Shown here: positions 107 through 22,321 of the stretch, piece after piece
Numbering within the stretch: position 1 is the first letter of the stretch
Layout of the letters: each line of letters starts with the position of its first letter
Virus record (IMG/VR): IMGVR_UViG_3300031885_002887
Location: 1-28,432 of that record
Length of the DNA stretch: 28,432 nucleotides
Strand: one strand, 5' to 3'
DNA from: a virus
The notes under the pieces: generated by a model
Told to the model about the DNA's origin: nothing
The model's input: the letters and a program-made list of their open reading frames with translations, nothing else
Database searches by the model: none
Made by a program: the position numbers and the translations under genes

Positions 107-1117
107 TTACAGATTGCGCAGCCAGTCCATCAGCTGTTGGTTCGATTGCCACGAGGGCGTCCCGGGCTTTGGAGCCATTGGGGCTGCCTTTTCGAGGGCC
201 TGGCGCTTCATCTTGAGATCGGCGCTAGCGTAGATCGTGCAGGTCTTGACGTCGGCGTGCCCCAGGATGCCCTGTATGGCGGTCATGTCGTTACCCGACT
301 GAAGCAGGTGCATGGCCTTCGTGTGCCGCAGCACGTGGGGGCTGATCACCTCCGGCACACTGGATTGCTTCTGGTGAGCCTGCCTGCCGTACTTGGCGAT
401 GAGGTATCGCACACCCGATCGCGACAGACCCTGCCGCTGACGGTTGAAGAACAATGGTTCGTCGATGCGAGCCGGATCCTGCAGGCGATACTCGCGCATG
501 TGGTCCTCAAGAGCGCGTACAGTGTCGGCCATCAGTGGCACAACGCGCGTCTTGCGCCCCTTGCCCGTCAGCCGGACCTGCGCCGGCGTGTCCAGCCGCA
601 CGTCGCTGACGCGCAGATCGATGACCTCTTGCACGCGCGCGCCGGTGTCATACAGCACGCGAAGCAGCAGTGCATGCCTCCGGCCCTGAACAGTGGCGCA
701 GTCCGGCTGGGCCAAGAGGGTCGTCAGGTCCGCGGCTTCCAGATAGGCAACAGCTTTGCGTTCGTGCCTCTGGAACGGGATCGCCAAGACCTGTTGGCAC
801 TGCACCATGTGGTCGGGAGCCTCGCTCTGGAGGAAGCGGAAGAAGGCATGGATCGCCGCCAGCCGCTGATTGCGGGTACGACACGTGCAATGGCGCTGGG
901 TCTCGAGGTGGTTCAGGAACTCCAGGATGATCGCGACATTCAGTTGGTCCAGCCGGAGGCGGTCCGGCGACAGGCTGTGGCTCTCCTTGCAGTATCGCAG
1001 GAGCAGCGTGAACACGTCGCGATACGACGCGACAGTGTTGGGGCTGACGTTGCGATGGGCCGGGAGATAATCTCCGAGGAAGCGGGTCAAGTGTCGTGCG
1101 AAGTCGGTCGGTGTCAT
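107..1117 (-). CDS. ritC: Tyrosine recombinase, RIT third gene (RitC type)
   Basis: A 336-residue site-specific tyrosine recombinase acting on DNA. It has an N-terminal SAM-like core-binding domain (about residues 8-100) and a C-terminal catalytic domain (about 120-300). The catalytic set is visible: Arg161 in TGARVQE, Lys186 in GKGRK, His261 and Arg264 in HVLRHT, His287 in LGH, and the Tyr296 nucleophile in TIYASAD. The ATG at 1117 is preceded by GAAGGGA. It is the last of three recombinase genes, 12 bases after the second, so it is almost certainly cotranscribed with them. Its role in RIT movement is inferred; all three recombinases of such elements are generally kept intact, as here. It is not a convincing phage integrase because it lies inside the inverted repeats. 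Confidence 0.85.
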   Translation of the reverse strand: MTPTDFARHLTRFLGDYLPAHRNVSPNTVASYRDVFTLLLRYCKESHSLSPDRLRLDQLNVAIILEFLNHLETQRHCTCRTRNQRLAAIHAFFRFLQSEAPDHMVQCQQVLAIPFQRHERKAVAYLEAADLTTLLAQPDCATVQGRRHALLLRVLYDTGARVQEVIDLRVSDVRLDTPAQVRLTGKGRKTRVVPLMADTVRALEDHMREYRLQDPARIDEPLFFNRQRQGLSRSGVRYLIAKYGRQAHQKQSSVPEVISPHVLRHTKAMHLLQSGNDMTAIQGILGHADVKTCTIYASADLKMKRQALEKAAPMAPKPGTPSWQSNQQLMDWLRNL

Positions 1118-1129
1118 GAGAGATTCCCT

Positions 1130-2086
1130 TCAGGAACGAGTAGATTGTTGGAGGAACGATTCGAGCCGTGCGGTGATGTCGGGGAAGACGGCCGGTGTCA
1201 GGCGCAGGTATCGCTGCGTTCCCCGCAGGCTCTCATGGCCCAGATAGGCCACCAGCAACGGCAGCCGCGCGTTCAGGTCCTCGCCTTGGCGATACCATCG
1301 CTGAAGGCAGTGCACGGCGAATGTGTGCCGCAGATCATGGAGCCTGGGTCCCCGGCCGCGACCACCATGCGGAATGCCGCATTCTCGAAGTCCCCGGCGG
1401 AAGTAGAAGTAGATCGTTCGCTTGTCATACGACTGCCCCAGCGGATTGGGGAGCAGGACGGACTCGGGGCTTCCGAGGTTCATGGCCTTGACGTAGCGGC
1501 GCAGTCGCTCCGTGAGAGAAGCAGCCATGGGGACAAGACGGTCCTTGCGGAATTTGCCTTCCCGGATCGTCAGCACGCCGCGCTCCAGGTCAACGTCAGC
1601 GACGCGCAGCCGCAGCGCCTCGCCGACCCGCAGCCCGCAGCCGTACAGCAGACGGAACAACTCGGACATAACCAGTTGCCGTTCGGGGCTGCGAGAGTCG
1701 GGCCGCAACCGATCGACGGCCTCCAGGAGCTGGCGCACCTGGTGACGTGTGAAGATGTGCGGCATGTAGTCCAGGCGGACGATTCCGGTAAGCCTGGAGT
1801 CCGGAACATGGGCCCCGATGCCGCGACGGCGCAGGAAGATGGCGAACTGCCGGACCAGCAGCACGCGCGCCTTGTGTGTGCGGGGCCGCTCGTGCGGCTG
1901 CTTGGCGATGTATCGCTCGACTTGTTCACGCGAGAGTGCTCGATCAACGCATGGATGGATGCACAGCGAGCGGTCCAAGCGACGCAGCAGGGCCGCTCCC
2001 GTCACATATCGGCAGCCACAGGATCGCTTCTCCTGAATGAAGGCCGCGATCTCCGGGGCCAGTACACTGTCCATGATGTCACTCAT
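1130..2086 (-). CDS. ritB: Tyrosine recombinase, RIT second gene (RitB type)
   Basis: A 318-residue tyrosine recombinase with an intact catalytic set: Arg153 in CGLRVGE, Lys178 in REGKFRK, His250 and Arg253 in LHDLRHT, His284 in YLGHES and Tyr293 in TQRYLRL. The N-terminus (about 1-110) is the helical core-binding domain. I chose the ATG at 2086 rather than the upstream ATG at 2107 because GGAGGAGG sits 7 bases before it and it overlaps the end of the preceding recombinase gene by 8 bases, which suggests translational coupling. The insert between His-Arg and the final His (about residues 262-280) is longer than in simple XerC-type enzymes. Confidence 0.86.
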   Translation of the reverse strand: MSDIMDSVLAPEIAAFIQEKRSCGCRYVTGAALLRRLDRSLCIHPCVDRALSREQVERYIAKQPHERPRTHKARVLLVRQFAIFLRRRGIGAHVPDSRLTGIVRLDYMPHIFTRHQVRQLLEAVDRLRPDSRSPERQLVMSELFRLLYGCGLRVGEALRLRVADVDLERGVLTIREGKFRKDRLVPMAASLTERLRRYVKAMNLGSPESVLLPNPLGQSYDKRTIYFYFRRGLRECGIPHGGRGRGPRLHDLRHTFAVHCLQRWYRQGEDLNARLPLLVAYLGHESLRGTQRYLRLTPAVFPDITARLESFLQQSTRS

Positions 2087-3338
2087 GCAGCACCTCCTCC
2101 GGATCAAGCGCCGCGCGGCGAAGGTCGTTCACGTCGATGCGCAGATAGCGCCGCGTCGTCTCGGGCGCGAGGTGGCCTAGTGTGCCGGCAATCGTGTCGA
2201 TCGGCACCCCGGCCTCCAGAAGGCGGCTGGCAAGGGTGTGCCGCAGTGAATGCAGTCCGCGCCGTGACTGTGCCGACATCTGGATGCCGGCCCTGCGACG
2301 GTAGGAGGAGATAATCGAATGCAGATTGTTGTCCGGACCAAAGGGCTCAAAGGGAGCGTTGTGACGCACGAAGACGTGCCGGTCGCTCGTCATCGGCCGC
2401 CCATGGCGCAGGTAATCGATGATCGCCTCGCCGACCTCTTCGGCCAGTGGCAACTCCAGTGGCACCCCGGTCTTCGCCTGGACAACGTGGATGCAGTTGT
2501 GCTCCCAGTCCAGATGATCGAGGGTCAGGTCGCGGATGTCGCCGACGCGCAGCCCCAGCCGGGCGGCCAGGAGGAGGATGGCGTAGTCGCGCTTGCCCAG
2601 AGGGGAAGCGCGATCAACGACCGACAGGAGCGACTGCACATCCTGGGCCGTCCAGATCGTCGGCAGCCGTTCGCTGCCGTATACCCGAACCTTCGGCACA
2701 GCCTCGACAATCGCCCCGTCGACAGCGCCCTGGATGCACAGGTAGCGAAGGAAGGACCGCATGAGATAGACCACTCGGGCAAGGGTTCGGGGTCGAATCT
2801 GCGTCAGCAGGCCGACGTACGTCGACAAGATCGCCGCAGTGATGTCGCGTGCGGACGCCACGCCACGGGAGTCAAGGAAGCCGAGGAACCGTCGAATGTT
2901 GCCCTGGTTGACGCGGAGGCTCCGCGGTGCCAGCCGATGCTCGTTGCGGCAGAACTGCTCGTAACCATCGAGGAGATGCTCCCAGTACGCCGACAGCGAC
3001 ATCCTGCGGCCCCTGCCGCGCCGCCGCTGAAAGCAGCCGTGCAAAGCGACTTCGGTGAGCATGCGCATTGCCGCGCGAATGTGGCGTTGCGATGCCCGCA
3101 ACGCTTCGTCGCCAGCATCGGGCAAGCCACGATGCGTCAGATATCGTTCCACCGCCTCGACGGTGAACCTGCCTGCGGCATCGCTCTGCTGGACGAATCG
3201 GACGAAGGAGTTCCATATCCCACGGTAGTTGTGGATGGCCTTCGCACAGTAACCAAGCTGCTTCAAACGCTCCATCGTCTGCTCCACCAGCGTCTCCAAC
3301 GACTGGTCCGGCTGCTTACACCCGTTCTGATGTTCCAT
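2079..3338 (-). CDS. ritA: Tyrosine recombinase, RIT first gene (RitA type)
   Basis: A 419-residue tyrosine recombinase, the longest of the trio, as is usual for RitA. It has an extended N-terminus (about 1-110), a core-binding domain (about 115-210) and a catalytic domain (about 228-405). Catalytic residues are Arg264 in LGLRVGD, Lys289 in QAKTG, His363 and Arg366 in LHSLRHT, His389 in LGHL and Tyr398 in RRYLRI. I prefer the ATG at 3338, with GGAG upstream, over a GTG ten codons earlier. It is first in the three-gene unit, so its promoter should lie between here and the right end of the element (3339-3488), which also carries the subterminal motifs. That arrangement would let recombinase binding repress transcription, but this is inference. 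Confidence 0.86.
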   Translation of the reverse strand: MEHQNGCKQPDQSLETLVEQTMERLKQLGYCAKAIHNYRGIWNSFVRFVQQSDAAGRFTVEAVERYLTHRGLPDAGDEALRASQRHIRAAMRMLTEVALHGCFQRRRGRGRRMSLSAYWEHLLDGYEQFCRNEHRLAPRSLRVNQGNIRRFLGFLDSRGVASARDITAAILSTYVGLLTQIRPRTLARVVYLMRSFLRYLCIQGAVDGAIVEAVPKVRVYGSERLPTIWTAQDVQSLLSVVDRASPLGKRDYAILLLAARLGLRVGDIRDLTLDHLDWEHNCIHVVQAKTGVPLELPLAEEVGEAIIDYLRHGRPMTSDRHVFVRHNAPFEPFGPDNNLHSIISSYRRRAGIQMSAQSRRGLHSLRHTLASRLLEAGVPIDTIAGTLGHLAPETTRRYLRIDVNDLRRAALDPEEVLHE

Positions 3339-3400
3339 GACATGGTCTCCAGGAAAGCGGGCCGCCACCGTGGCCGCCCAGGAGGACCATTGTCGCCGAG

Positions 3401-8426: not shown

Positions 8427-10151
8427 TCATGAAAGCAGTTCTTTCCCCAATGAACGGAGGTCTTGTTTGGTCTCTGGGTAAGCCAACTTCAGAAGCTGCT
8501 GATTCCCAAAGGGTGACTTGAAGAAGTTGTTGGCCGTCCACCGTTCAGGATCCGTCTTTCTGGCCTTCCGCCAGGCTTTCCAAACTGCTTTGACCAACTT
8601 GTGTATGACCGCACGTGCATGTTTGCCCATCGACCCATAGCTCTCGAACGCATCGAACGCATTACGGATGGATTCCAGAGAACAACGTGCTGTGACGCCT
8701 GACGTTGCAAAAAAACCTCGGCTCAAGAGCCAAAGTGTATTCCACCGAGCGTGTCCTTGCCTGCGACGGGTCTTGGCATCCGGGTAGCCGTAGTCTATAA
8801 GAAATCTGGACAGCCTGTAGGCCAAGTATATCTTCTTGAAACGGTGGGCCACTCTAGACTTTGACGGAAAGAGCACGCGATAGTGCTTCTCATCGAAGAC
8901 GCGCTCCATACCTTGCTTTATAAGCAGCACGCCGCCGCCAGTGTCATCAGACACGGCGGTAAGAATCAACCCCAAGTCTTTCAGCGATAGCCGCGAAAAG
9001 CCGTGAAAGCGCGGATCGTTGCGAACTTCCTTCCATTCGCCTCGCTTCCGCTCGTAGAACACCTTGAATTCCTGAAAAAGGTGCTGAAGTTCAACTTGTT
9101 CCGGCTCATTGGACGAGAAGTCGAACTTCAGGACCCGGTTCTGAGTGTTCACGCCGCGGATTACCTTCTGAAGCCAGGAATCGTCTTCCGGAGCTCCGTC
9201 GGTGCCCCTGACAATGGCTCTTACCGCTACCAAGGCGGGGGAGCGCATTCGCTTGGAAGCACCTATCGCATATAGCGTCTGAGCCCCGTTGATGACGCTG
9301 GGGTTCTGCAACGTTGCAATTCCGTTTTCCTCTGAGAACTTGTCGCAAACGATGGTCAAGCCGTTATGGAAGTACCAGAAGTCTTTCGGGTGTTTTTCGT
9401 AGGTTTCTCGAATTGCCCTGCCCACCTTGCCGGCAAGGTTGTAGCGGATGTTCCGAGCTACAAGGCGAGCCACGTCGGAACTACGAAAGTATTCCTGAAA
9501 ATCGCTCATCCTGGCGTTGAACAAATATGATCGAACGCCTCTCTCCCTGTCGGGATACTCCATCTTGTCGTTGATGTTCAATAGCAGCGGCTTTGGTGTC
9601 GGCGTCTGGCCTTTTCGGTAGCGGCTGTATATCCGCATGACATTGGGCGCGTACACGAAGTTCTCACGGGGAATCTGGTCGAACTCAGCCGGTTGCCGAC
9701 GGGTTGCGGTCGTCACCAACCGAAAGGCTTTCTTTTGGCTAGCCCAATTTCCTGCTTCAGCCAGTTGATCCACGGCCCGCCGGTAGCGATGCCGCAGGTC
9801 GTCTCTAACGGTGTCGATGAACCTGTCAAATAGATCGCCTCCATGGCGAAACGCCTCCACAACTTGGCAAAAGTCGGAATAGGCCTTTTTCCCAAGTTGG
9901 CCGCGGCCGACCTTCGCGGAGAACTTGGACTGGATCACGAAAACAGGCGGGATTTCGTTCGGACACCAAACGACGGCGTCCACTCCTCCATCCTTAACAT
10001 CATCGGTGAAATCCCATTTAGCATGTCGTCCGAACTCAGCCTCGATATACCAGTCCAGAAATGCTTGATGAATGCGTCCCTGATAATTCCGGTCAGCTCT
10101 TTCCGAGAGGCTTTCTAAGAACTCGCTCACAATTAGGTCGTGGTGCGCCAC
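8427..10151 (-). CDS. AIPR-family abortive phage infection protein
   Basis: The GTG start at 10151 is chosen because AGGAG lies 7 bases upstream; the product is 574 residues. The N-terminus carries a PD-(D/E)XK-like nuclease pattern: helix YQGRIHQAFLDW, then DGGVDAVVW (Asp58) and VIQSKF (Gln74, Lys76). The middle has the AIPR signature: FWYFHNGLTIVCD (about 258-270) and PSVINGAQTL (about 284-293). AIPR proteins are associated with abortive infection, where infected cells stop growth or die so that phage do not spread. The gene is antisense between terminase and portal, and its base composition is clearly less GC-rich than the neighbours, suggesting recent acquisition. It is likely expressed in the lysogen from its own promoter in 10182-10330, which I cannot pinpoint. 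Confidence 0.82.
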   Translation of the reverse strand: MAHHDLIVSEFLESLSERADRNYQGRIHQAFLDWYIEAEFGRHAKWDFTDDVKDGGVDAVVWCPNEIPPVFVIQSKFSAKVGRGQLGKKAYSDFCQVVEAFRHGGDLFDRFIDTVRDDLRHRYRRAVDQLAEAGNWASQKKAFRLVTTATRRQPAEFDQIPRENFVYAPNVMRIYSRYRKGQTPTPKPLLLNINDKMEYPDRERGVRSYLFNARMSDFQEYFRSSDVARLVARNIRYNLAGKVGRAIRETYEKHPKDFWYFHNGLTIVCDKFSEENGIATLQNPSVINGAQTLYAIGASKRMRSPALVAVRAIVRGTDGAPEDDSWLQKVIRGVNTQNRVLKFDFSSNEPEQVELQHLFQEFKVFYERKRGEWKEVRNDPRFHGFSRLSLKDLGLILTAVSDDTGGGVLLIKQGMERVFDEKHYRVLFPSKSRVAHRFKKIYLAYRLSRFLIDYGYPDAKTRRRQGHARWNTLWLLSRGFFATSGVTARCSLESIRNAFDAFESYGSMGKHARAVIHKLVKAVWKAWRKARKTDPERWTANNFFKSPFGNQQLLKLAYPETKQDLRSLGKELLS

Positions 10152-10227
10152 TCTTAATCTCCTGCGGGCTGCCAGGCCCACCGCTTCGGACAGTCAGCCT
10201 AAGTGAAATGTCCAATTCTGCCGGCAT
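10093..10227 (-). CDS. Possible 44-residue leader ORF before AIPR gene
   Basis: A short reading frame starts at an ATG (10227) with GGAGGT only 3 bases before it, and ends at 10093, overlapping the first 59 bases of the AIPR gene in another frame. The product, MPAELDISLRLTVRSGG..., has no recognised motif. The strong ribosome binding site suggests it may be translated, possibly to control AIPR translation by coupling. It may equally be chance. Confidence 0.3.
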   Translation of the reverse strand: MPAELDISLRLTVRSGGPGSPQEIKSGAPRPNCERVLRKPLGKS

Positions 10228-12234: not shown

Positions 12235-14269
12235 GCGGCCCGGCTTCGCCGAGGCTACGCAGGGCAGGCTGGAACTAACTGCCCAGATGGATATCACCGC
12301 CGGCGCCGACGCTGGCGATGGCAAGCCCGCGCTTCCCCGCTTCAGCATGGTCGCCTACACCGGCGGTCCCATGCGGGTTGCGGGCTGGCGCTACCCGGTG
12401 GTCGTGGACCTGGCCGGGCTGGCTGTCCCGCGGCAGAACGCCCCGATCCGCGAGTCGCACGGCGCTCGCGTCGGCCACGCCGAGAGCATCCGCGTCGAGG
12501 CCGGGCAGCTCATGGCGGCGGGCGTCATCTCCTGCACGGGCCAGGTCGCCCGCGAGGTGGTCGCCGACGCGAAGAACGGCTTTCCGTGGCAGGCGAGCAT
12601 CGGGGCCTCGGTCGAGCAGTTCGAGTTCATCAAGGAAGGTCAGTCCGCCCTGGTAAACGGCCGGGACTTCATCGGGCCCGTCAACGTCGTCCGCAAGGCG
12701 ACGCTGGGCGAGATTTCATTCGTCGATCTTGGAGCCGACGGGAACACGTCGGCCAATGTGGCCGCTTCGGCCAAGGAGAACATCAACATGGACGGTAACG
12801 AAAACACCACTCAGGACACCACCGCGACTGTCGAGGGCAAGGACGCCACCAAGGTCGAGGCAAAGGCGCAGACGGGCGCGGATGCCCCCGCGCCTTCGGT
12901 TCAGGCTTCGGCCGGCGCCGGCATCACCGCGACGTGCGTCGCCGATATGCGCGCCAGCGCCGCGGCTGAGCAGGAGCGGATCGTGGCCGTGCGCAAGGTT
13001 TGCGGCGACACCCACGCCGAGATCTGCGCCAAGGCCATCAAGGATGGCTGGGACGTCACCCGCACCGAATTGGAGGTCCTGCGGGCCGACAGGCCCAAGG
13101 CGCCGGCGGCGCACATCCCCGATCCCGGCGCGCCGGGAACCGGCTCGGTCCTCGAGGCCGCGTGCATGCTGACCGGCGGCGTCAAGGGCGACGTGGTGGT
13201 CGCCGCCTTCGGTGAAAAGTCCGTCGAGGCCGCCGACAAGCGGTTCAAGGGCGGCATCGGACTCCAGGAGCTGCTGTTGGAGGCCGCGTGGGCCAACGGC
13301 TACGACGGCCGGAACTTCCGCGACAGCCGCTCCGTGCTGCGGTTCGCGTTCGGCCATGCCGGCGGAATCCAGGCCGGCTGGTCCACCATCGACATCGGCG
13401 GCATCCTGTCCAACGTCGCCAACAAGTTCCTGCTGGAGGGATTCTTCAGCGTCGAGCGGACCTGGCGGAACATCTGCGCGGTGCGGAACGTCTCGGACTT
13501 CAAGACGGTCACCAGCTACCGGCTGATCGGCAAGGACCAGTACGAGATCGTCGCCCCCGGCGGCGAACTCAAGCACGGGACGCTGGGCAACGAGTCCTAC
13601 ACCAACAAGGCCGACACCTACGGCCTGCAGCTGGCCATCGACCGGCGCGACATCATCAACGACGACCTCGGCGCCATCACCACGGTCCCGCGGAAGCTTG
13701 GCCGTGGCAGCGGCCTGAAGATCAACGACGTGTTCTGGGGCATCTTCCTGAACAACGGCTCGTTCTTCACCGCCGGCAACAAGAACTACACCACCGGCGC
13801 CGACACGGTGCTGTCCATCGACGGGCTGACGAAGGTGGAAAAACTCTTCGCCGACCAGGTGGACTCCGATGGCAAGCCCATCGGCATCCAGCCGGCGGTC
13901 ATGCTGGTGCCGACGGCGCTGAGCGCCATGGCCACCATGCTCTTCAAGAGCCTGGAGATTCGCGACACCACGGCCAGCACCAAGTATCCCGTGGCCAACC
14001 CGCACCAGAACAAGTTCCGCGCCGAGGTCAGCCGTTACCTGTCGAACGCCAGCTACACCGGCAACAGCGAGAAGGCCTGGTATCTGCTGGCCGACCCGGC
14101 CGACCTGCCGGTCATCGAGGTGGCGTTCCTCAATGGCCAGGAGTCCCCGACCATCGAAACGGCGGATGCGGACTTCGGAACGCTCGGAATCAGAATGCGC
14201 GGCTACCACGACTTCGGCGCCTCCCTGCAGGATCCCAAGGGCGGCGCAAAGGCAAAAGGTGAGGCCTAA
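12194..14269 (+). CDS. Prohead protease fused to major capsid protein (Mu gpT-like)
   Basis: A single 691-residue protein covers two usual genes. Residues about 45-200 look like a prohead protease: His89 in RESHGARVG and Ser135 in PWQASIGAS are the probable catalytic pair, with GEISFVDLGADGN closing the domain. Residues about 200-300 are Ala/Thr/Lys-rich, scaffold-like (helices VADMRASAAAEQERIVAVR). Residues about 305-680 resemble the Mu-like major head subunit gpT: WSTIDIGGILSNVANKFL, NVSDFKTVTSYRL, then YTNKADTYGLQLAIDRRDI and a NPHQNKFRAEVSRYL segment. The ATG at 12194 has AAGGAAG 6 bases upstream; an ATG six bases earlier is less well spaced. The protease would free the capsid part by self-cleavage during head maturation. 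Confidence 0.82.
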   Translation: MATNKTPGNQKPPERPGFAEATQGRLELTAQMDITAGADAGDGKPALPRFSMVAYTGGPMRVAGWRYPVVVDLAGLAVPRQNAPIRESHGARVGHAESIRVEAGQLMAAGVISCTGQVAREVVADAKNGFPWQASIGASVEQFEFIKEGQSALVNGRDFIGPVNVVRKATLGEISFVDLGADGNTSANVAASAKENINMDGNENTTQDTTATVEGKDATKVEAKAQTGADAPAPSVQASAGAGITATCVADMRASAAAEQERIVAVRKVCGDTHAEICAKAIKDGWDVTRTELEVLRADRPKAPAAHIPDPGAPGTGSVLEAACMLTGGVKGDVVVAAFGEKSVEAADKRFKGGIGLQELLLEAAWANGYDGRNFRDSRSVLRFAFGHAGGIQAGWSTIDIGGILSNVANKFLLEGFFSVERTWRNICAVRNVSDFKTVTSYRLIGKDQYEIVAPGGELKHGTLGNESYTNKADTYGLQLAIDRRDIINDDLGAITTVPRKLGRGSGLKINDVFWGIFLNNGSFFTAGNKNYTTGADTVLSIDGLTKVEKLFADQVDSDGKPIGIQPAVMLVPTALSAMATMLFKSLEIRDTTASTKYPVANPHQNKFRAEVSRYLSNASYTGNSEKAWYLLADPADLPVIEVAFLNGQESPTIETADADFGTLGIRMRGYHDFGASLQDPKGGAKAKGEA

Positions 14270-14296
14270 GCCTCCATCTGACAGGAGATAACGAAC

Positions 14297-15010
14297 ATGG
14301 CACAGAACTATCAGGCAACATTCATTCAGGAAGGCTTGTCCATCGACTACACGCCCGGCTCGGCGGTTGCCGCCGGCCAGGTGGTGGTCCAGGGCAGCAT
14401 GATCGGCGCGGCGAAGACGCCCATCGCCGCAAACGCCCTGGGCGCTCTGGCGGTCCGGGGCATCTTCGACGTGGTCAAGGCCAACGAGCAGCAGGCGCTC
14501 GGCGCGGCCCTGTACTGGGACGCCGACGGCAACCCGTACAACGGCACGGCCGGCACGGGCTGCGCGACGACCACCAGCAGCGGCAACACCTTCATCGGCT
14601 TCGCCCAGGTAGCTGCCGGGGCCACGGACGAGGTTGTCCGCGTGCTGTGGAGCGGGCCGGTGGCCGTGACCAACACGGTGCATAACGCCCTGACTGCCCT
14701 CATCGCCGACCCCGGCAATGCGGGCGCCATCCCGGTGACCGACACGGGCCACTGCGAGATCGTCACGGCCGGAGCCGAGACCAGGACGCTGGCGGCCCCG
14801 ACGTACCTGGGCCAGATGCTCCTGCTGTCGATGAAGACCGACGGCGGGGATGCGGTTATCGCCGTGGCCACGGGCATCAACCAGACCGGCAACAACCGGA
14901 TCACCATGAACGACGCGGCCGACTCGATCCTGCTGGTCGCTGTCGCCAGCGGCACCAACATCCGCTGGCGCGTGGCCTACAACGACGGCTGCACGCTGAG
15001 CACGGTGTAA
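14297..15010 (+). CDS. DUF2190-like capsid decoration protein with extra C-terminal domain
   Basis: A 237-residue protein. The first half (about 1-115) fits DUF2190/head decoration proteins: MAQNYQATFIQEG, DYTPGSAVAAGQVVVQGSMIG, then ALAVRGIFDVVKA and QALGAALYWDADGN. These bind the outside of the capsid as cement. The second half (about 145-237) is a beta-rich domain (HCEIVTAGAETRTLAAPTYL, then NNRITMNDAADSILLVAV) of the sort found at the surface of other virion proteins. It follows the capsid gene with GGAG before the ATG. No cleavage signal or Cys is obvious. The capsid surface role is a confident inference from family and position; the C-terminal domain's ligand is unknown. Confidence 0.75.
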   Translation: MAQNYQATFIQEGLSIDYTPGSAVAAGQVVVQGSMIGAAKTPIAANALGALAVRGIFDVVKANEQQALGAALYWDADGNPYNGTAGTGCATTTSSGNTFIGFAQVAAGATDEVVRVLWSGPVAVTNTVHNALTALIADPGNAGAIPVTDTGHCEIVTAGAETRTLAAPTYLGQMLLLSMKTDGGDAVIAVATGINQTGNNRITMNDAADSILLVAVASGTNIRWRVAYNDGCTLSTV

Positions 15011-15661: not shown

Positions 15662-16108
15662 GTGGCACTCGTAATCGACATCGCGGACGCGGTGGCCGGC
15701 CTGCTGAACGGCGACGACGCCGACTTCTCGCAGGACTTCGAGGCCCAGCGGCGGGTCCGGCCGAGCGTCGAGCTTGCGGACCTGACCGACCTGCGCGTGA
15801 CGGTCGTGCCGAAGGCAGTCGAAACCTCCACCGCCAGCCGGAGCCTCAGTCAGTACGACGTGCAGGTGGATGTCGGCATCCAGAAGAAGCTGCCTGCGGG
15901 CGCCGACGAGGACACCGAGGTGCCCGTGATGTGCGGCCTGGTCGAGGAGGTCGCGGACTTCCTGAAGGGCAAGCCGCTTGAGGGCGACGGCTGGCGGGCG
16001 TCCTGGGTCCGCCCGGCCGTCAACGAGCCGGTCTATTCGACTGAGCACCTGGCCGAGAAGCGGGTGTTCACGTCGGTCCTGACACTAACCTACCGGGTGA
16101 TGAAGTAG
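15662..16108 (+). CDS. Probable tail-completion/minor structural protein
   Basis: Starts at GTG 15662, chosen because GGAGG lies 9 bases before it; 148 residues. It opens ALVIDIADAVAGLLNGD and has alternating beta strands (LADLTDLRVTVVPKAVET, YDVQVDVGIQKKL) and a helix EVADFLKGKPL, ending FTSVLTLTYRVMK. This helix-plus-sheet pattern with a final strand is common to phage tail-terminator and head-tail-joining proteins, which are similar in size (about 130-150). Position between head and tail genes supports that. No specific family is recognised. Confidence 0.6.
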   Translation: MALVIDIADAVAGLLNGDDADFSQDFEAQRRVRPSVELADLTDLRVTVVPKAVETSTASRSLSQYDVQVDVGIQKKLPAGADEDTEVPVMCGLVEEVADFLKGKPLEGDGWRASWVRPAVNEPVYSTEHLAEKRVFTSVLTLTYRVMK

Positions 16109-16120
16109 CGAGGTATCGAG

Positions 16121-16609
16121 ATGACCTATCAGCGCAAATGGCTTCAGTCAACCGACGTGATGGTCTGTCAGACCACCGGCGCGGTCCTGGTTCGGGCCTT
16201 GTCCTCCTCGGCACAGGGCGACTTCGACCTGCTGGAGTTCCCGCTCTACCACACAGAGGGCATCGAGGATGTCGTCTGGGATGTGCGTTTCGCCCTGGCG
16301 GAGTTGACCGCCCCGGCCTTCGCCGCGCCGCTGCTTGCGGGCGACACGAGCGTCTCCTTCGCGGGCTTGTTTGCACGCGTGGACTATCGCGGCGTGCCCG
16401 GCGGGATCGAAGCCCTGACGGCAGACGGCATCGCCACGAAGATGTCCGAGGCCGACTCGCTGCTCAAATCCGGCCTGCTGCTGGTGCCCGCCAGCGCCGC
16501 GGCGCTGGCCAGGTTCATCCCCGGCAAGAAGTACATTCGCCGCTCGTCGCAGAAGGCCCGCGGCCATGAGGAATGGAGCGTCAATCATGACGAAATCATC
16601 GTTTGGTAG
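16121..16609 (+). CDS. Hypothetical structural-region protein
   Basis: A 162-residue protein, MTYQRKWLQSTDVMVCQTTG..., mainly beta at the front (LLEFPLYHTEGIEDVVWDVRF), then a helical AADSLLKSGLLLV-like part and a basic end (FIPGKKYIRRSSQKARGHEEW). Its last 23 bases overlap the start of the next gene in a different frame. There is no signal peptide and no membrane helix, so it differs from the three exported proteins that follow. Function unknown; by position it could be a tail-joining component. Confidence 0.55.
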   Translation: MTYQRKWLQSTDVMVCQTTGAVLVRALSSSAQGDFDLLEFPLYHTEGIEDVVWDVRFALAELTAPAFAAPLLAGDTSVSFAGLFARVDYRGVPGGIEALTADGIATKMSEADSLLKSGLLLVPASAAALARFIPGKKYIRRSSQKARGHEEWSVNHDEIIVW

Positions 16610-17360
16610 GTTTGCGGCAGTGGCCCTGGCCGCCGTCCTGCTGACGGCGACCGCCGCGTGGGCTTGCATGTTCATCGTTCCGCCCTACGCGGCCATCGAA
16701 TACAACGCTGACGAGGCCCTGGCGCTGCACGGGTCGGCGGAAGCCTTCGACAAGGCGACCCCGACGCATCTTCGCGACGTTATCGCCGGCGCCGCCGCAC
16801 ACTGGTTCAACAGCGACGTGGGCCAGATCGCCACGCTGCGGGGCTACGCCCACATCGGCGTCCAGGGCGCTACCCAGCAGCAGGCCAACGCCAATGTCCA
16901 GCTTATCCAGATCTGGGGCTGGCTGGACACCAACGGCAACGGGGCGGCCGACGCCGGGGACACGACCACGTCGTGGACAAAGCTGGTCGAACATACGCCC
17001 AGCGCCAACGGCGGCGACGGCTCCGGCGGCAACGTGGTCGGCTGGGATATCCCATACCCGCCAGCGCCGGCCATCGAGACATCCACCTGGCAAGGCGACC
17101 TGCTCCAGGGCCAGACCATCCAGATCAATCCTGGCGAGTCCTGGCTGCTGCTGATCCGGGTGGTGGACATCAGCGGCACCACGAACCTCATGGCGGCCGT
17201 CGGCGGTCTGGAGCGGTGGGACAACGGGGCCGAGGACGGCGTCGGCAGCGATGTCACCGACGAGCGGTATGTGGACGCCAAAGGCAACACGCCCGGCACC
17301 GCCGACGGGCGGATACAGGACAAGCACGTGACGTGGGTGTACCGCCCGCGCCTCAAGTAA
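16587..17360 (+). CDS. Exported protein with calcium-loop-like motif
   Basis: A 257-residue protein with a clear signal peptide (basic MTKSSFGR, hydrophobic FAAVALAAVLLTATAA, cleavage near AWA-Cys27). The mature part is beta-rich. Asp114-Thr-Asn-Gly-Asn-Gly to Asp125 (DTNGNGAADAGD) looks like a dockerin/EF-hand-type calcium loop, and a Gly-rich NGGDGSGG loop follows. I chose ATG 16587 (TGGAG upstream) because it puts the signal peptide at the N-terminus; a start 21 bases earlier would spoil it. It opens a run of three exported proteins inside the virion gene order. It may be a surface protein of the lysogen or a virion protein loaded outside the cytoplasm; neither is shown. Confidence 0.65.
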   Translation: MTKSSFGRFAAVALAAVLLTATAAWACMFIVPPYAAIEYNADEALALHGSAEAFDKATPTHLRDVIAGAAAHWFNSDVGQIATLRGYAHIGVQGATQQQANANVQLIQIWGWLDTNGNGAADAGDTTTSWTKLVEHTPSANGGDGSGGNVVGWDIPYPPAPAIETSTWQGDLLQGQTIQINPGESWLLLIRVVDISGTTNLMAAVGGLERWDNGAEDGVGSDVTDERYVDAKGNTPGTADGRIQDKHVTWVYRPRLK

Positions 17361-17378
17361 CAAGGAAGGGAAACCGAC

Positions 17379-18494
17379 ATGTTGAAGCGAGCAATGGTGA
17401 TGTTGATGTTGATGGCGATGGTGACGGCGACGGGGGCACTGGCGCAGACGGACAATACGGATAACAAGGCCCTGGCGGCCGCGGTCAAGCAGGCTTCCGC
17501 CGCCAAGGACACGGCGATTGCCCTGGCCAGGGCGACGGTACTGGAGGCGTCTGACGCCAAGGACGCCTTGTGGGCCGACAACGCCCGCACGATGGCCAAC
17601 CTGATGTGGAGGTCGGGCAAGCACGCCGAGGCCGCGACCTGGCTGGACGAAAAGGCCAAGTCCCTGGCCGCCGACACCGCCGACCTGGCGGGCGACGTGC
17701 GCGATCAGCGCAATAGCGCCCTGGTCGGCGGTTGCCTGGACCTCGTCAAGCTCGAAACCGACCATGCCGCCCGGGCCGGCCTGGCGCGGACGGCCCTGAC
17801 GGTGAGCGACACCAGCAACGGGGCGTTCCAGGCCCTGTACAACGCGCTGGCAGCGTCCGGGAAGTACGACGAGGCCCTCAAGGCGTGCCTCGACTACGCC
17901 GGCAAGGCCGCCACGGCCGAGGCGATGCGGTCTCGGCGACTGGCCCTGGTGATCCAGCTCAAGCGGACGAGCGACTTCAAGGCCGAGGCGACGGAGTACC
18001 TGAGGGTCGCCACCGACCCGGCGGGCGCTACCAAGGCCCTCGCGCACGCGCTGCCTACCGACGACGTGGCCTTGTGCTGCGGTCTGACGGCCCAGCAGGT
18101 GCTCGACGGCCGCAAGCTCGAACTCCGCAGGGTCGCCGGAAAGCTGAACTCGCAGATGTTGCTGGCGCTGGCCGACCAGCTCACCAAGGGCGGACCGGCC
18201 AGGCCCCTGGCCATCAGCGACGACGCCAGGAGCCTGGCCGACACTCTGGTCGGCTCGCCGCTGGCGTCGTTCCTCGTCCCGCTGCTCAAGGGCGAGTACC
18301 CGGCCGCCTTCCGGGAGGCATACGCCAGGGCCAAGGCCGCCGAGACCGACAGGGACTACGTCGCCTGGGTCAACGCGGCCGCCGGTGCGATCCGCTGCAT
18401 GGAGCAGCACTACAACGGCAAGGCGCTGGAGTTCGTCAAGTTCGTCAACGGCACCGTGCCAACCAACCCCGTCGCGGACCTGGTGAACCCATGA
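17379..18494 (+). CDS. Exported alpha-helical repeat (TPR-like) protein
   Basis: A 371-residue protein with a Met-rich signal peptide (MLKRAMVMLMLMAMVTATGALA-Gln). The rest is Ala/Leu/Asp-rich and helical in pairs of about 35-40 residues (NARTMANLMWRSGKHAEAAT, then GAFQALYNALAASGKYDEAL, and similar), the pattern of TPR-like repeats that scaffold protein-protein binding. A Cys pair (CC) and helix-capping Gly occur near 230. It follows the first exported gene by 18 bases and its stop overlaps the start of the third by 4 (ATGA), so the second and third are translationally coupled. I infer an extracytoplasmic binding partner of the neighbouring exported proteins. Confidence 0.65.
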   Translation: MLKRAMVMLMLMAMVTATGALAQTDNTDNKALAAAVKQASAAKDTAIALARATVLEASDAKDALWADNARTMANLMWRSGKHAEAATWLDEKAKSLAADTADLAGDVRDQRNSALVGGCLDLVKLETDHAARAGLARTALTVSDTSNGAFQALYNALAASGKYDEALKACLDYAGKAATAEAMRSRRLALVIQLKRTSDFKAEATEYLRVATDPAGATKALAHALPTDDVALCCGLTAQQVLDGRKLELRRVAGKLNSQMLLALADQLTKGGPARPLAISDDARSLADTLVGSPLASFLVPLLKGEYPAAFREAYARAKAAETDRDYVAWVNAAAGAIRCMEQHYNGKALEFVKFVNGTVPTNPVADLVNP

Positions 18495-19603
18495 ACAGAA
18501 TGGCAATCGCAATCGTGATGCTCTCGTGCGCGGCGTCTCTGGCGTCGGCCGCCGAGTGCCAGCGCCCGAAGGTGCCGGAGGATCTGGCAACTGTCTCGCT
18601 GGGCGCGGCGCTCAATGAGCGTGCGGCGGTGGCCGTCGTCGGCCCGAAGCCCTTCGGCGCTGACGAGTTGTACGGCGGGCGGGCTATCCGCCTGGTGCTC
18701 TCCTGCGAGGACGACCAGGCTCTGCGCGACCTGTTGACCCGCGAGGGGCTGACGCTCCGCAACGGAGGCGAGGCCCGCAAGCTGCCGGAGTTCTTCACGG
18801 CGATAGTCTGCAACTCCATGCAGGAGTTCAGCCGCGAGGACGCCGCCCTTGAGAAGATCGACTCGCCCTCCCCGCTAGGGGCCCCAAGGGCCGGTATCCG
18901 CGTGCTGCGGTTCGCAGACTATAGAGATGTGGCGCGATCGGCTGCAGCGGCGGACTATGCCGCCGACCACCCGGATGAGAAGTACATCGTCATCGCCGAG
19001 CCGGCTGGGCTGTCCGTCAATGCCCTCAAGGCATTGGCCGGGCCGAACATCGTCGCTGTGGTGGTTGGACACAACCACGCCGCCGAGGACAGGCCGGAAG
19101 ACTACGCCCAGGCCGCCGAGGAGGTCAAGCGGGTGGTCAAGGTGATCCGCATGGTCTCCGACGCCCCGGTGCTGCTGGCGGTCTCGGCCACTAACGAGTT
19201 CACCCACAAGGCCGAGAAGTCCTGGCCACAGGCCTTCGGCGACGATCTGGCGGGCTTTGACGGCTGGGCGGTGTACGGCCTGGCCCTGTTCCCGGCCATC
19301 CTTGAGGCCCCTGCCAACCCCCGCAAGCTCGTCCTGGAGCGGCTGGGGCTGGCGGCTCTCGGCGATCTTGGCGAAAGGCCCTGCGTGCTGATCGAGTTCA
19401 CGGGCACCCCCTACAGATATAAGCCAGCCGAAGCGGAGTACATCCGCAAGGTCTGGCGGGCCAAGGCCCCGCTGCTGCTGAAGGCGATGACCGGGCAGGA
19501 GTGGCGCGGCCTGGTGGTCTGGTCAAACAGCATCGAAGACGCCGCCCTCAAGGCCGAGGCGCTTCAAGCGGTCGCAGCAGCGCAGGCGGCACAGAAGCAA
19601 TAA
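18491..19603 (+). CDS. Exported protein with possible TIM-barrel fold
   Basis: A 370-residue protein with signal peptide (MNRMAIAIVMLSCAASLASA, cleavage before Ala-Glu-Cys). The mature region has repeated beta-alpha segments: KYIVIAEPAGLSVNALKAL, NIVAVVVGHNHAAED, VLLAVSATNEFTHKAEKSW, FDGWAVYGLALFP and PCVLIEFTGTPYRYKP. This resembles glycoside-hydrolase-type TIM barrels, with acidic residues at strand ends (Glu in IAEP, Glu in TNEF, Glu in IEFTG) as candidates. I cannot assign a GH family and the usual catalytic Asn-Glu pair is only approximately present. If it is a hydrolase, a phage copy could trim cell-surface glycan; this is conjecture. The ATGA overlap couples it to the helical repeat protein. 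Confidence 0.6.
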   Translation: MNRMAIAIVMLSCAASLASAAECQRPKVPEDLATVSLGAALNERAAVAVVGPKPFGADELYGGRAIRLVLSCEDDQALRDLLTREGLTLRNGGEARKLPEFFTAIVCNSMQEFSREDAALEKIDSPSPLGAPRAGIRVLRFADYRDVARSAAAADYAADHPDEKYIVIAEPAGLSVNALKALAGPNIVAVVVGHNHAAEDRPEDYAQAAEEVKRVVKVIRMVSDAPVLLAVSATNEFTHKAEKSWPQAFGDDLAGFDGWAVYGLALFPAILEAPANPRKLVLERLGLAALGDLGERPCVLIEFTGTPYRYKPAEAEYIRKVWRAKAPLLLKAMTGQEWRGLVVWSNSIEDAALKAEALQAVAAAQAAQKQ

Positions 19604-19670: not shown

Positions 19671-20471
19671 ATGTCAGGCGAAAACTTCGTACTCGGCAAG
19701 GACTGCAAGCTGTACTACGGCGAAACCCTCACCGCCACCCCGACCGGCGCGGAAGACTGGTCGGAGATCGACAACGCTAAGGATGTGAACCTCCAGCTCG
19801 ACAACGGCGAGGCCGACATCACCACGCGGGCCAACAGTGGCTGGAAGGCCACGGCGGCAACGCTGAAGGAGGCCAGCATCGAGACCGAGATGCTCTGGAA
19901 GCCCTCCGACCCGGCCTTCGCGGCGGTCCTGGACGCCTGGCTGAACAATAAGGAGATCGCCGTCGCCGCGATGAGCGGCGGCATGGCCATATCCGGCAGT
20001 CAGGGCCTGGCCGGCAACTGCGTGGTGACCAGCTTCAAGCGGAACGAGCCGCTGGAGGAGGCCGTCACGGTCAGCGTCACGCTCAAGCCGTCGAGCTTCA
20101 CCACGTGGCTTGTCATGCCTGCCGGCTCGATTGCCGCCACTGGCACGGTCACACTGAGCGGCCAGCCCGGCGACGCCAATATCGTCGTGATCGGCGATGG
20201 CGAGACCACGGTCACGTTCGAGTTCGACTCGGCCGCTGATCCCGGCGCCGTCGAGGCCGGCCACACCCGCGTCAAGATCGGCGTGGCGGCATCGAACACC
20301 ATCACGGCCCTGATCGATGCGATCAACGCATCGGCCCTGACGATCGGCGCGGCCGAGGGCACGGGCGACTCTGCCACTCTGACACACCAGACGCTGGGCG
20401 TCATCGGCAATGTCGCGATCACCAAGACCGGCGCGAATATCGCCGTCACCGGCATGGCCGGCGGCGTGTGA
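19671..20471 (+). CDS. Major tail tube protein with C-terminal extra domain
   Basis: A 266-residue protein. Residues about 1-150 match phage tail tube proteins: short beta strands LYYGETLTATPTG, then KDVNLQLDNGEADITTRAN and SIETEMLWKPSDPAFAAVLD, EEAVTVSVTLKPSSFT. These form the hexameric tube through which DNA passes. Residues about 155-266 add a beta domain (IVVIGDGETTVTFEFDSAAD, VKIGVAASNTITALIDAINA, LTHQTLGVIGNVAITKTG) like add-on domains seen on the outside of tails of other phages. A tube protein implies a long tail; sheath protein is absent in the window, so siphovirus morphology is more likely. GGAG precedes the ATG. Confidence 0.75.
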   Translation: MSGENFVLGKDCKLYYGETLTATPTGAEDWSEIDNAKDVNLQLDNGEADITTRANSGWKATAATLKEASIETEMLWKPSDPAFAAVLDAWLNNKEIAVAAMSGGMAISGSQGLAGNCVVTSFKRNEPLEEAVTVSVTLKPSSFTTWLVMPAGSIAATGTVTLSGQPGDANIVVIGDGETTVTFEFDSAADPGAVEAGHTRVKIGVAASNTITALIDAINASALTIGAAEGTGDSATLTHQTLGVIGNVAITKTGANIAVTGMAGGV

Positions 20472-21121: not shown

Positions 21122-21387
21122 CAATCCGCGAGCTGCTGTGGATGGCGGAGGGCCGCAACCGGCGGCTGTGGGACCACACGGCGGCGATTGCGGCGGCGGC
21201 ATTGAGCAGCTTCCGCGACAAGATGATCGACCCGGCCAAATTGAACCCGTACCGCTCCGGCGGCAAGCGGTCAAAGGGTATCCCGCTGACGGCGGAGAAC
21301 ATCGACATTCTGAAGACAGTGTTTGCAAAGAACATAGGCAGCCCGGCAGGCAAGCCGGACCCAAACGCGAAGGAGCGCAGAACATGA
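21058..21387 (+). CDS. Second chaperone frame (gpT-like extension), possible -1 frameshift product
   Basis: In the -1 frame relative to the chaperone, the reading frame encodes WQLVYELAGFVGIEPGGLTI, RELLWMAEGRNRRLWDHTAA and then SFRDKMIDPAKLNPYRSGG. This 'ELxxLVGIxPGxLTxREL...MAEGR' pattern is conserved in the second tail-chaperone protein (G/GT pair). There is no good start codon before the conserved part; the first ATG (21142) would cut off the conserved front. Start given is approximate. A frameshift joining the 0-frame to this frame is therefore likely. I find no classical X-XXY-YYZ heptamer, so the site is unresolved. Confidence 0.6.
   Translation, partial: VGPWQLVYELAGFVGIEPGGLTIRELLWMAEGRNRRLWDHTAAIAAAALSSFRDKMIDPAKLNPYRSGGKRSKGIPLTAENIDILKTVFAKNIGSPAGKPDPNAKERRT
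21071..21086 (+). other. Stem-loop near the chaperone frame junction
   Basis: AGCTCG (21071-21076) and CGAGCT (21081-21086) pair perfectly around a TCTA loop, just after the point where the -1 frame becomes conserved. It could be a frameshift-stimulating hairpin. Confidence 0.35.
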
Positions 21388-21695
21388 GAAACGCATGGAG
21401 ATGGTTGATACTGGCGCTGGTGCTTATGCTGGCCATACTGACCGTGGCCGGCTGCGGCAACGTGACGCTGAAGGGCGACTCGATGACCGCCGCAGAGACC
21501 TCGACGCTGGATGCCTTCAACGCATCCCAGCGGGCCGGGGCTGACCCGAACATGCCCCATTGGGCGCAGGTCTATCTCGACGAGAACTTCAAGCAGTGGC
21601 GGTGCTTCGTCTGGTCGGCCAAGAAGGACGTGACCTGGGGGCCGAAGTTGCCGGAAGAGAAGACGGCGGCGCCGGCGACCAAGGCGGGCGGCTGA
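21384..21695 (+). CDS. Small lipoprotein
   Basis: A 103-residue protein starting MRNAWRWLILALVLMLAILTVAGC; the VAGC lipobox (Cys24) predicts lipid attachment and export. The mature part is short and soluble (TLKGDSMTAAETSTLDAFNA, then HWAQVYLDENFKQWRCFVWS). The start overlaps the preceding stop (ATGA, 4 bases). Size and lipobox recall outer-membrane spanin subunits (Rz1/o-spanin-like) or phage exclusion lipoproteins; no inner-membrane spanin partner with a clear coiled coil is next to it, although two membrane proteins follow. Function not certain. Confidence 0.6.
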   Translation: MRNAWRWLILALVLMLAILTVAGCGNVTLKGDSMTAAETSTLDAFNASQRAGADPNMPHWAQVYLDENFKQWRCFVWSAKKDVTWGPKLPEEKTAAPATKAGG

Positions 21696-21756
21696 GCGCT
21701 GCTGAAGCTGCTGGGGATGGACCCCGCGAACTGCGAGACACGGAAGGAGTTGACCC

Positions 21757-22104
21757 ATGTTGGAATTGACTGACAAGACCCAGGTGCTGTTGGACAAGGT
21801 GCCCACCGAGCAGCGGCAGGCGGCTGCCGCCCTCCTGGCCGAGTACGGCCTGCGATTCTTCGAACTGGCTCAGGAGGACGCCTGGCAGATGCTGCGCCGC
21901 CTGATGGCCGGCGACATCGAGGTTGTAGCCGAGCTGGACGCAAAGCTCTCCGACGACGCCTTCATCGCCAAGGTGAAGGCCAACACGGCCCGCTGGGAGA
22001 ACGTCGCCCAGTACAACAAGGTCCGCGAGGACCTCAAGAATGAAATCCTTCTGCGGTTGGCGCCGATCGTGCTGTCGGTGCTGGCTGCGATGGTGGGTCT
22101 TTGA
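21757..22104 (+). CDS. Small protein with C-terminal membrane helix
   Basis: A 115-residue protein: mostly charged helix (MLELTDKTQVLLDKVPTEQR, then KANTARWENVAQYNKVREDL) and a final membrane segment (ILLRLAPIVLSVLAAMVGL, about 97-115). GAAGGAG precedes the ATG after a 61-base gap. It could be a holin partner or a C-tail-anchored regulator. It precedes another two-helix membrane protein and follows the lipoprotein, so a lysis cassette is plausible, but no endolysin lies here. Confidence 0.6.
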   Translation: MLELTDKTQVLLDKVPTEQRQAAAALLAEYGLRFFELAQEDAWQMLRRLMAGDIEVVAELDAKLSDDAFIAKVKANTARWENVAQYNKVREDLKNEILLRLAPIVLSVLAAMVGL

Positions 22105-22126
22105 CAAGCCACAACAGGAGATTGCC

Positions 22127-22321
22127 ATGAACAAGGTACGAGAGTTCCTCAAGGGCAAGAAGGCGTACATCACCGCAGCCATCGGCCTGCTTGGCGCGGT
22201 GGCGGCCTGGGCCGACGGCCAGATCGGCGGCGTGGCCCTGCTGGCGGCAGTCTGGGCCGCAGCCCAGACCTGCTTCATCCGGGCCGGCATCAGCAATGAG
22301 GTAAGCAAGGCCCAGCAGTAG
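22127..22321 (+). CDS. Small holin-like membrane protein
   Basis: A 64-residue protein with a basic front (MNKVREFLKGKK), one membrane helix (AYITAAIGLLGAVAAWADG), a second hydrophobic stretch (GGVALLAAVWAAAQTCFI) and a short charged tail. Two short membrane helices and small size match class II holins. CAGGAG precedes the ATG at 22127. It follows the other membrane protein by 22 bases. Holin is an inference; I see no endolysin nearby. Confidence 0.6.
   Translation: MNKVREFLKGKKAYITAAIGLLGAVAAWADGQIGGVALLAAVWAAAQTCFIRAGISNEVSKAQQ

Follow-up and report, generated by a model that had tools for sequence, protein, structure and literature searches.

An exported three-protein cassette in the virion gene run of a planctomycete phage looks like an undescribed envelope system

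INTRODUCTION

Why would a phage keep genes for three exported proteins among those that build its head and tail? The question is raised by IMG/VR virus record IMGVR_UViG_3300031885_002887, analysed here over its whole length of 28,432 nucleotides (the window). Three adjacent genes in it, called SP1, SP2, and SP3, each encode a protein with a predicted signal peptide, while the plus strand also carries the families expected of a virion gene run: terminase, portal, a capsid-protease fusion, decoration protein, major tail protein, and tape measure. A profile search with the capsid gathered 80 viral and 80 genome loci (59 to 97% identity), and because the genome loci lie nearly all in Planctomycetota assemblies, the phage is assigned to a planctomycete phage family. 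Phages of Planctomycetota are nearly unstudied, with one cultured case, chronically released, in the open papers searched (PMC10945688). Because the threesome recurs in other planctomycete prophages, it has the look of a phage envelope system not yet described. Such a conserved unit of three exported proteins within the virion gene run is also a handle on how planctomycete phages deal with the envelope.

A LINKED CASSETTE WITH EXPORT SIGNALS

A sequence-only reading of this DNA had described three consecutive proteins with signal peptides, placed between head-joining genes and the tail tube, the last two coupled by ATGA, and had taken them for one unit. The layout is as described (Table 1). 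On one side lies g146, a conserved gene found by tblastn in 134 of 174 family loci and named for its position, with no PHROG match; on the other lies the major tail protein, recognised by both Pfam and PHROG. SP2 and SP3 overlap by the four bases ATGA, an arrangement by which, to judge from the sequence, SP3 is translationally coupled to SP2, and only 18 bp separate SP1 from SP2. The unit itself needs enlarging. Its three exported members are indeed linked, co-occurring, and recurring, but it also takes in a fourth, non-exported member that had been left out, g162, within whose last codons SP1 starts.

Signal peptides were judged at the called starts with a hydropathy and cleavage heuristic of our own. 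Of 22 window genes, five receive a flag: SP1, SP2, SP3, a lipoprotein, and the membrane protein g93. None of the TerL, portal, capsid, tail-tube, tape-measure, and g162 proteins does. The homologues or counterparts of the trio number 32, and 30 of these are flagged as well; the two that fail both belong to one relative, L013, whose SP1 has a long n-region and whose SP3 lacks a positive charge.

Could the three be chance or miscalled open reading frames (ORFs)? This is ruled out, as all three are conserved, keep their signals, and have ratios of nonsynonymous to synonymous substitution (dN/dS) well below 1: 0.25 to 0.45 for SP1, 0.28 to 0.39 for SP3, and, the highest in the cassette, 0.44 to 0.53 for SP2 within the window clade. 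The trio genes are real and constrained, though more loosely than virion proteins. Among close relatives g162 and the tail and decoration proteins lie at about 0.05 to 0.19, below the trio (0.25 to 0.53), and the full range for g162, 0.05 to 0.30, is virion-like. By alignment, the N-terminal segment of g162 resembles ORFs at the same site in two other loci (L022 and L086).

Table 1. The cassette, its flanks, and other features of the window
Feature	Position	Strand	Description
g146, left flank	15668..16108	+	conserved; neck/tail-completion-position gene; GTG start
g162	16121..16609	+	162 aa, non-exported; fourth cassette member
SP1	16587-17360	+	257 aa; signal peptide, DxNxNG calcium-type loop, probable beta domain
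SP2	17379-18494	+	371 aa; signal peptide, probable all-helical repeat protein
SP3	18491-19603	+	370 aa; signal peptide, short stalk, (beta/alpha)8 clan GH-A-like barrel
Major tail protein, right flank	19671..20471	+	Pfam PF06199 (Phage_tail_2) 3.4e-6; phrog_1407 1.5e-16
Lipoprotein	21384..21695	+	VAGC lipobox; followed by g115 and the short membrane protein g93 (together 21384-22321)
Three tyrosine recombinases	107-3368	-	adjacent genes at left end of record; Pfam Phage_integrase
AIPR/AbiU-like gene	8427-10181	-	abortive-infection gene between terminase and portal

RECURRENCE IN RELATED PHAGES AND PROPHAGES

Do these genes stay together elsewhere? The trio is present in eight further viral contigs, seven of them close (83 to 94% identity) and the eighth, L013, more distant (62 to 79%). 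Any contig that spans the region carries all four genes, and g162 leads the trio whenever the sequence extends that far, which bears out the expectation of co-occurrence. Roughly 100 other family loci that show g146 as well as the tail protein lack the cassette, the junction between the two measuring from about 0 to 4.6 kb. Flanks of the same kind in every relative rule out the idea that the trio is host DNA lying between prophages. In L013 the cassette is conserved as well as or better than most of the backbone: g162, SP1, SP2, and SP3 share 77, 79, 62, and 65% identity with the window, against 45% for g146, 53% for the tail protein, and 40% for the tape measure; the portal (62%) and capsid (64%) are about level with the cassette. 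Synonymous divergence is likewise lower over g162 to SP2 (0.56 to 0.59) than in most backbone genes (0.61 to 1.17). Together these comparisons suggest that g162-SP1-SP2-SP3 may move as a block.

A second, diverged version of the trio came from a profile survey of 392 Planctomycetota genomes. SP1 itself found no match in genome contigs, and the G390-type SP1 is found in no viral contig, but the SP1 profile matches one genome, G390, at three prophages (L188, L189, and L193), with a further weak match in genome G332 (E 0.005). The G390 SP1 homologue aligns with a probability of 98.2% over 197 columns in hhalign (E 4.4e-14), and the neighbouring barrel protein aligns with SP3 at 82.7% over 99 columns (E 9.5e-6; BLASTP 2e-4). 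At each of the three loci the SP1 homologue overlaps the stalked SP3 homologue by ATGA, in the opposite gene order to the window's. Ahead of the pair come one or two exported ORFs that are possibly helical; no SP2 homologue was detected in G390, only this counterpart of similar size and kind. In L188 and L193 the trio sits at the tail end of the prophage, with a g275 homologue upstream in the former and a large serine recombinase downstream in the latter. Because diverged SP1 and SP3 are neighbours again in another position, these loci offer the strongest evidence, from gene order and homology, that the two proteins may work together.

The third version is a look-alike. In one Phycisphaerales genome, G001, three prophages have, at the position that the cassette takes in the window, a non-exported ORF and after it three exported ORFs coupled by ATGA. 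These encode a 197-aa protein with a DVNGND loop (DxNGND type), a barrel on a stalk rich in repeats, and a protein that is possibly helical. The barrel model is weak (predicted local distance difference test score, pLDDT, 46), and only clan GH-A structures appear among its best 50 VIA matches (best Z 14.9). Neither BLASTP nor hhalign supports homology with the window trio, so the architecture alone is alike, but the alignments are shallow (Neff 1.1 to 2) and may miss a distant homology. A domain common to the small preceding ORFs of the three versions (g162, L151, and L188 types) found no support either. The same region of the G001 prophages also holds an alpha/beta-hydrolase-like ORF with the motif GHSFGAQRV (L180 reverse complement, 14405-14935; L181 reverse complement, 13838-14395), perhaps an envelope esterase.

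THE THREE EXPORTED PROTEINS

What kinds of proteins make up the trio? SP1, SP2, and SP3 had been read from the letters as a calcium-loop beta protein, a TPR (tetratricopeptide repeat)-like helical protein, and a possible TIM-barrel protein that might serve as an enzyme for glycan remodelling. The calcium-type loop of SP1, DTNGNGAADAGD, holds up well: D114, N116, G117, G119, and D125 are kept in every copy, down to 28% identity, and the protein is probably a beta domain. The window SP1 has a single cysteine, Cys27, just past the predicted signal region, and in most homologues a Cys directly follows that region (AWA|C), in a non-canonical lipobox. SP2 and SP3 have no lipobox Cys.

For SP2, the all-helical repeat nature is probable, while the TPR assignment comes down to Pfam matches below the curated cut-off (TPR_4, E 0.29; TPR_2, E 0.36). 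The helical part is the fastest-evolving one in both genomes where prophages can be compared. Among the three G001 prophages it is 40 to 44% identical, against 73 to 90% for the other two trio members and 69 to 95% for almost every other gene they share (in one prophage TerL and g77 reach only 47 to 56%). Among those of G390 it is 26 to 59% identical, against 56 to 75% for the beta protein, 39 to 84% for the barrel, and 75 to 82% for the preceding ORF. Through this rapid divergence the helical part looks like a specificity or arms-race component.

The barrel of SP3 is supported by an AlphaFold model (pLDDT 57; predicted template modelling score 0.64; core 70 to 83). All of its best 50 VIA structural matches are GH-A-like glycosidases (Z 11.3 to 13.1, with about 216 to 251 residues aligned at 3.6 to 4.5 Å), the closest being glycoside hydrolase (GH) families GH5, GH1, GH113, and GH53 and other clan GH-A enzymes. 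In sequence it has no GH match in Pfam up to E 1 and no relative in the PDB, and Foldseek against BFVD returned nothing under 0.001 (best row, a phage GH5-like protein at E 2.2e-3). A stalk accompanies the barrel, with one repeat-like unit in the window and about 17 copies of a Pro-rich 14-aa unit in L013.

Is the barrel an enzyme? Here the earlier expectation finds no support. After strand beta4, where the acid/base N-E motif would stand, the window has G193-H194-N195-H196 and L013 has GHYH, a position read from the strands of the model, in which a nearby E199/D could in principle substitute. E302, at the end of strand beta7 in the nucleophile position, is kept without exception in the window clade and L013, whereas each of the three G390 homologues has Gly there. 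It is therefore doubtful that SP3 is an active glycan enzyme. With the canonical catalytic Glu lost, binding is favoured over hydrolysis, and SP3, as modelled, is probably a non-catalytic barrel for which glycan binding is still possible.

WHAT MIGHT THE CASSETTE DO?

The reading preferred here, and only tentatively, is an envelope-located, probably non-catalytic complex that masks surface glycans or receptors, for exclusion or for protection of progeny. In such a scheme g162 would stay in the cytoplasm, probably associated with virions, while SP1, SP2, and SP3 would be exported by the Sec pathway, into the periplasm or onto the outer surface, and assemble there. SP1 would be the calcium-stabilised part, possibly lipid-anchored in some versions; SP2 would be a fast-changing helical scaffold that sets specificity; and SP3 would be a stalked, probably non-catalytic glycan-binding barrel reaching outward. 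The complex would cover or sequester the surface glycan or receptor used by the phage's own adsorption proteins. Masking would then stop both the re-adsorption of kin phages and the loss of released progeny on envelope debris. Points in its favour are the export signals of the trio and most of its counterparts, the linkage of the four genes, the return of the parts in G390 and of a like-built trio in G001, the lost catalytic Glu, the rapid divergence of the helical part, the looser selection on the trio, and the other exported cassettes or fibre-like ORFs with which neighbouring phages fill this site.

Several observations weigh against the masking complex. (i) Three prophages with one cassette type coexist in G001, and likewise in G390, which strong mutual exclusion would hinder. 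(ii) Exclusion of other phages would require expression in the lysogen. A scan near the cassette gave no promoter-like site, against 0.8 to be expected by chance, so that late expression is likely, and this suits progeny protection or egress at least as well as it suits exclusion. (iii) No glycan-binding motif was recognised. (iv) The Cys of SP1 is not universal, being replaced by V in L188. (v) What anchors the barrel in G390 seems to be an N-terminal membrane segment that is not cleaved off. (vi) The lead of the helical part in divergence does not hold in every comparison, since SP2 (62%) and SP3 (65%) differ about equally between the window and L013.

Could the trio instead help virions to leave? 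Possibly, though on the whole this is unlikely. An egress module would weaken or remodel the envelope of the planctomycete cell late in infection, and a late gene run lacking an independent promoter-like site suits it. So do the neighbours: the G390 trio lies between tail genes and recombinase, with a membrane ORF next in L189; the L013 trio directly precedes a lipoprotein and a g93 homologue; and the same site elsewhere holds papain-like plus thioredoxin-like proteins, or a membrane ORF plus possible peptidase and trypsin-like proteins. No lysis gene is recognised within the window, but the record is incomplete and such genes may lie outside. Moreover, Pfam finds no peptidase, amidase, or lysozyme domain in SP1 to SP3, Pfam and PHROG together find no holin with a peptidoglycan-degrading enzyme domain in them (membrane ORFs adjoin the trio in L013 and L189 only), the canonical catalytic residues are missing from the barrel, and most family members manage without the cassette.

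Somewhat less probable again is a tripartite Sec-exported system that works with a dedicated g162-type virion protein, either by offering the phage's own virions a partner or decoy at the cell surface or by forming a virion appendage matured in the periplasm. We know of no phage system of such a tripartite kind with a dedicated virion protein. The appendage in its specific form, in which the trio would fold outside the cytoplasm and join virions at lysis through g162 as a stalked glycan-binding fibre, is improbable. It would explain why g162 is always ahead of the trio and has the selection pattern of a virion protein, why a small non-exported ORF also precedes both other versions, and why related phages hold fibre-like ORFs at the site; a stalk with a carbohydrate-enzyme fold would also suit a receptor-binding tip. 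Yet the preceding ORFs of the three versions have no sequence relation, the N terminus of the G390 barrel resembles a membrane anchor, and no comparable virion assembly in tailed phages is known to us. SP1 to SP3 match no known head or tail family in PHROG, and each has a signal peptide.

Equally improbable is cargo for lysogenic conversion, that is, surface proteins that would help the lysogen (in adhesion, matrix, or defence against grazers) apart from the phage cycle. Selection that is relaxed yet purifying would fit, as would a site that holds differing cargo in other phages and the stalk repeats and Thr-rich linkers typical of surface proteins. The cassette, however, has no promoter-like site of its own, is translationally coupled to g162 with its virion-like selection, and has no non-phage copies in the surveyed genomes besides the G390 prophages and the one weak match. 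Least probable of all is an active glycosidase complex in which SP3 would hydrolyse a surface glycan and SP1 and SP2 would position it, since its GH5/GH1/GH113/GH53-type fold (Z up to 13.1) and invariant E302 are offset by the absent N-E motif (G-H-N/Y-H) and the Gly of the G390 homologues.

OTHER CARGO AT THE SITE AND NEIGHBOURING GENES

What do related phages carry between g146 and the tail protein? Eleven loci have an exported papain-like protein (SCVQCS...HFQTL...NN, a Cys/His/Asn pattern recognised by eye), linked in 10 of them (L043, L050, L051, L056, L060, L092, L093, L115, L121, and L131; L125 has the first gene only) to an exported, Pro-rich, membrane-anchored thioredoxin-like partner. 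The two might be a secreted endolysin or an envelope redox pair. L089 and L130 hold a membrane ORF, a possible papain-type peptidase, and an exported trypsin-thioredoxin fusion, of which L061 has the last two, and other family phages have fibre-like ORFs. A small protein of 84 aa, p84 (L068, 11967-12218, and 34 other loci), also lies mostly at this junction, often ahead of a variable Gly-rich "MGY-G" ORF, and is perhaps an adaptor for exchangeable fibres. A count of exported proteins at the junction against those in flanking genes gave odds of 1.7 (p 0.011), a figure that is not relied on because alternative starts were used and the loci are non-independent.

Farther along, many family members have a lipoprotein gene past the tail-protein region, and the window with its matching loci has g115 and g93 after it; in L013 the lipoprotein and the g93 homologue have moved to directly after SP3. 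A role for g77 as an XhlA-type holin has no Pfam support. At the left end of the record, each of the three recombinases matches Phage_integrase (E 1e-25 to 1e-29), and the triplet looks like a Recombinase-in-Trio (RIT) element. The AIPR/AbiU-like gene (Pfam AIPR 2e-30; PADLOC AbiU 8e-26), opposed to the direction of the surrounding genes, has one other match among the fetched loci.

COMPARISON WITH KNOWN SYSTEMS

Is the system new? None of SP1 to SP3 has a match in Pfam, PHROGs, PADLOC (and thus no anti-phage defence model), PDB sequences, or GenBank phages, so the earlier suggestion that it is undescribed stands for those collections; a literature search likewise found no planctomycete phage with such genes. 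The nearest parallels in activity are small surface proteins. Llp of T5 and Cor of phi80 and N15 are superinfection-exclusion lipoproteins. Ltp of TP-J34 is another phage lipoprotein with this function (PMC3952083). Like them, the trio is phage encoded, carries export signals, and would act at the cell surface, and some of them adjoin adsorption genes. They are, however, single small lipoproteins, whereas here there are three proteins, a stalked barrel with a helical partner among them, and no sequence relation was found.

Other comparisons are partial. With clan GH-A (GH5, GH1, GH53, GH113, and GH164) the trio shares the predicted (beta/alpha)8 fold, the best VIA Z being 13.1 (SP3) and, in the look-alike, 14.9, but its barrel has no Pfam GH match and no acid/base motif, and its distant homologues lack the nucleophile. 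The exported cassettes of related phages share the g146-tail junction, Sec export, and the phage family, yet belong to other protein families, some with recognisable peptidase or thioredoxin domains. Phage morons and lysogenic-conversion genes are likewise accessory, variable, and present in some relatives only, whereas for the trio no promoter or terminator of its own is seen and it is coupled to a virion-type gene. The masking complex would thus be a multi-part form of a known activity, in a system that, as composed, is undescribed as far as the searches reach. Should exclusion or partnership with the virion prove true, a multi-subunit class would be added to a field of mostly single small exclusion proteins, and a glycosidase-type fold would have been re-used minus its canonical catalytic residues.

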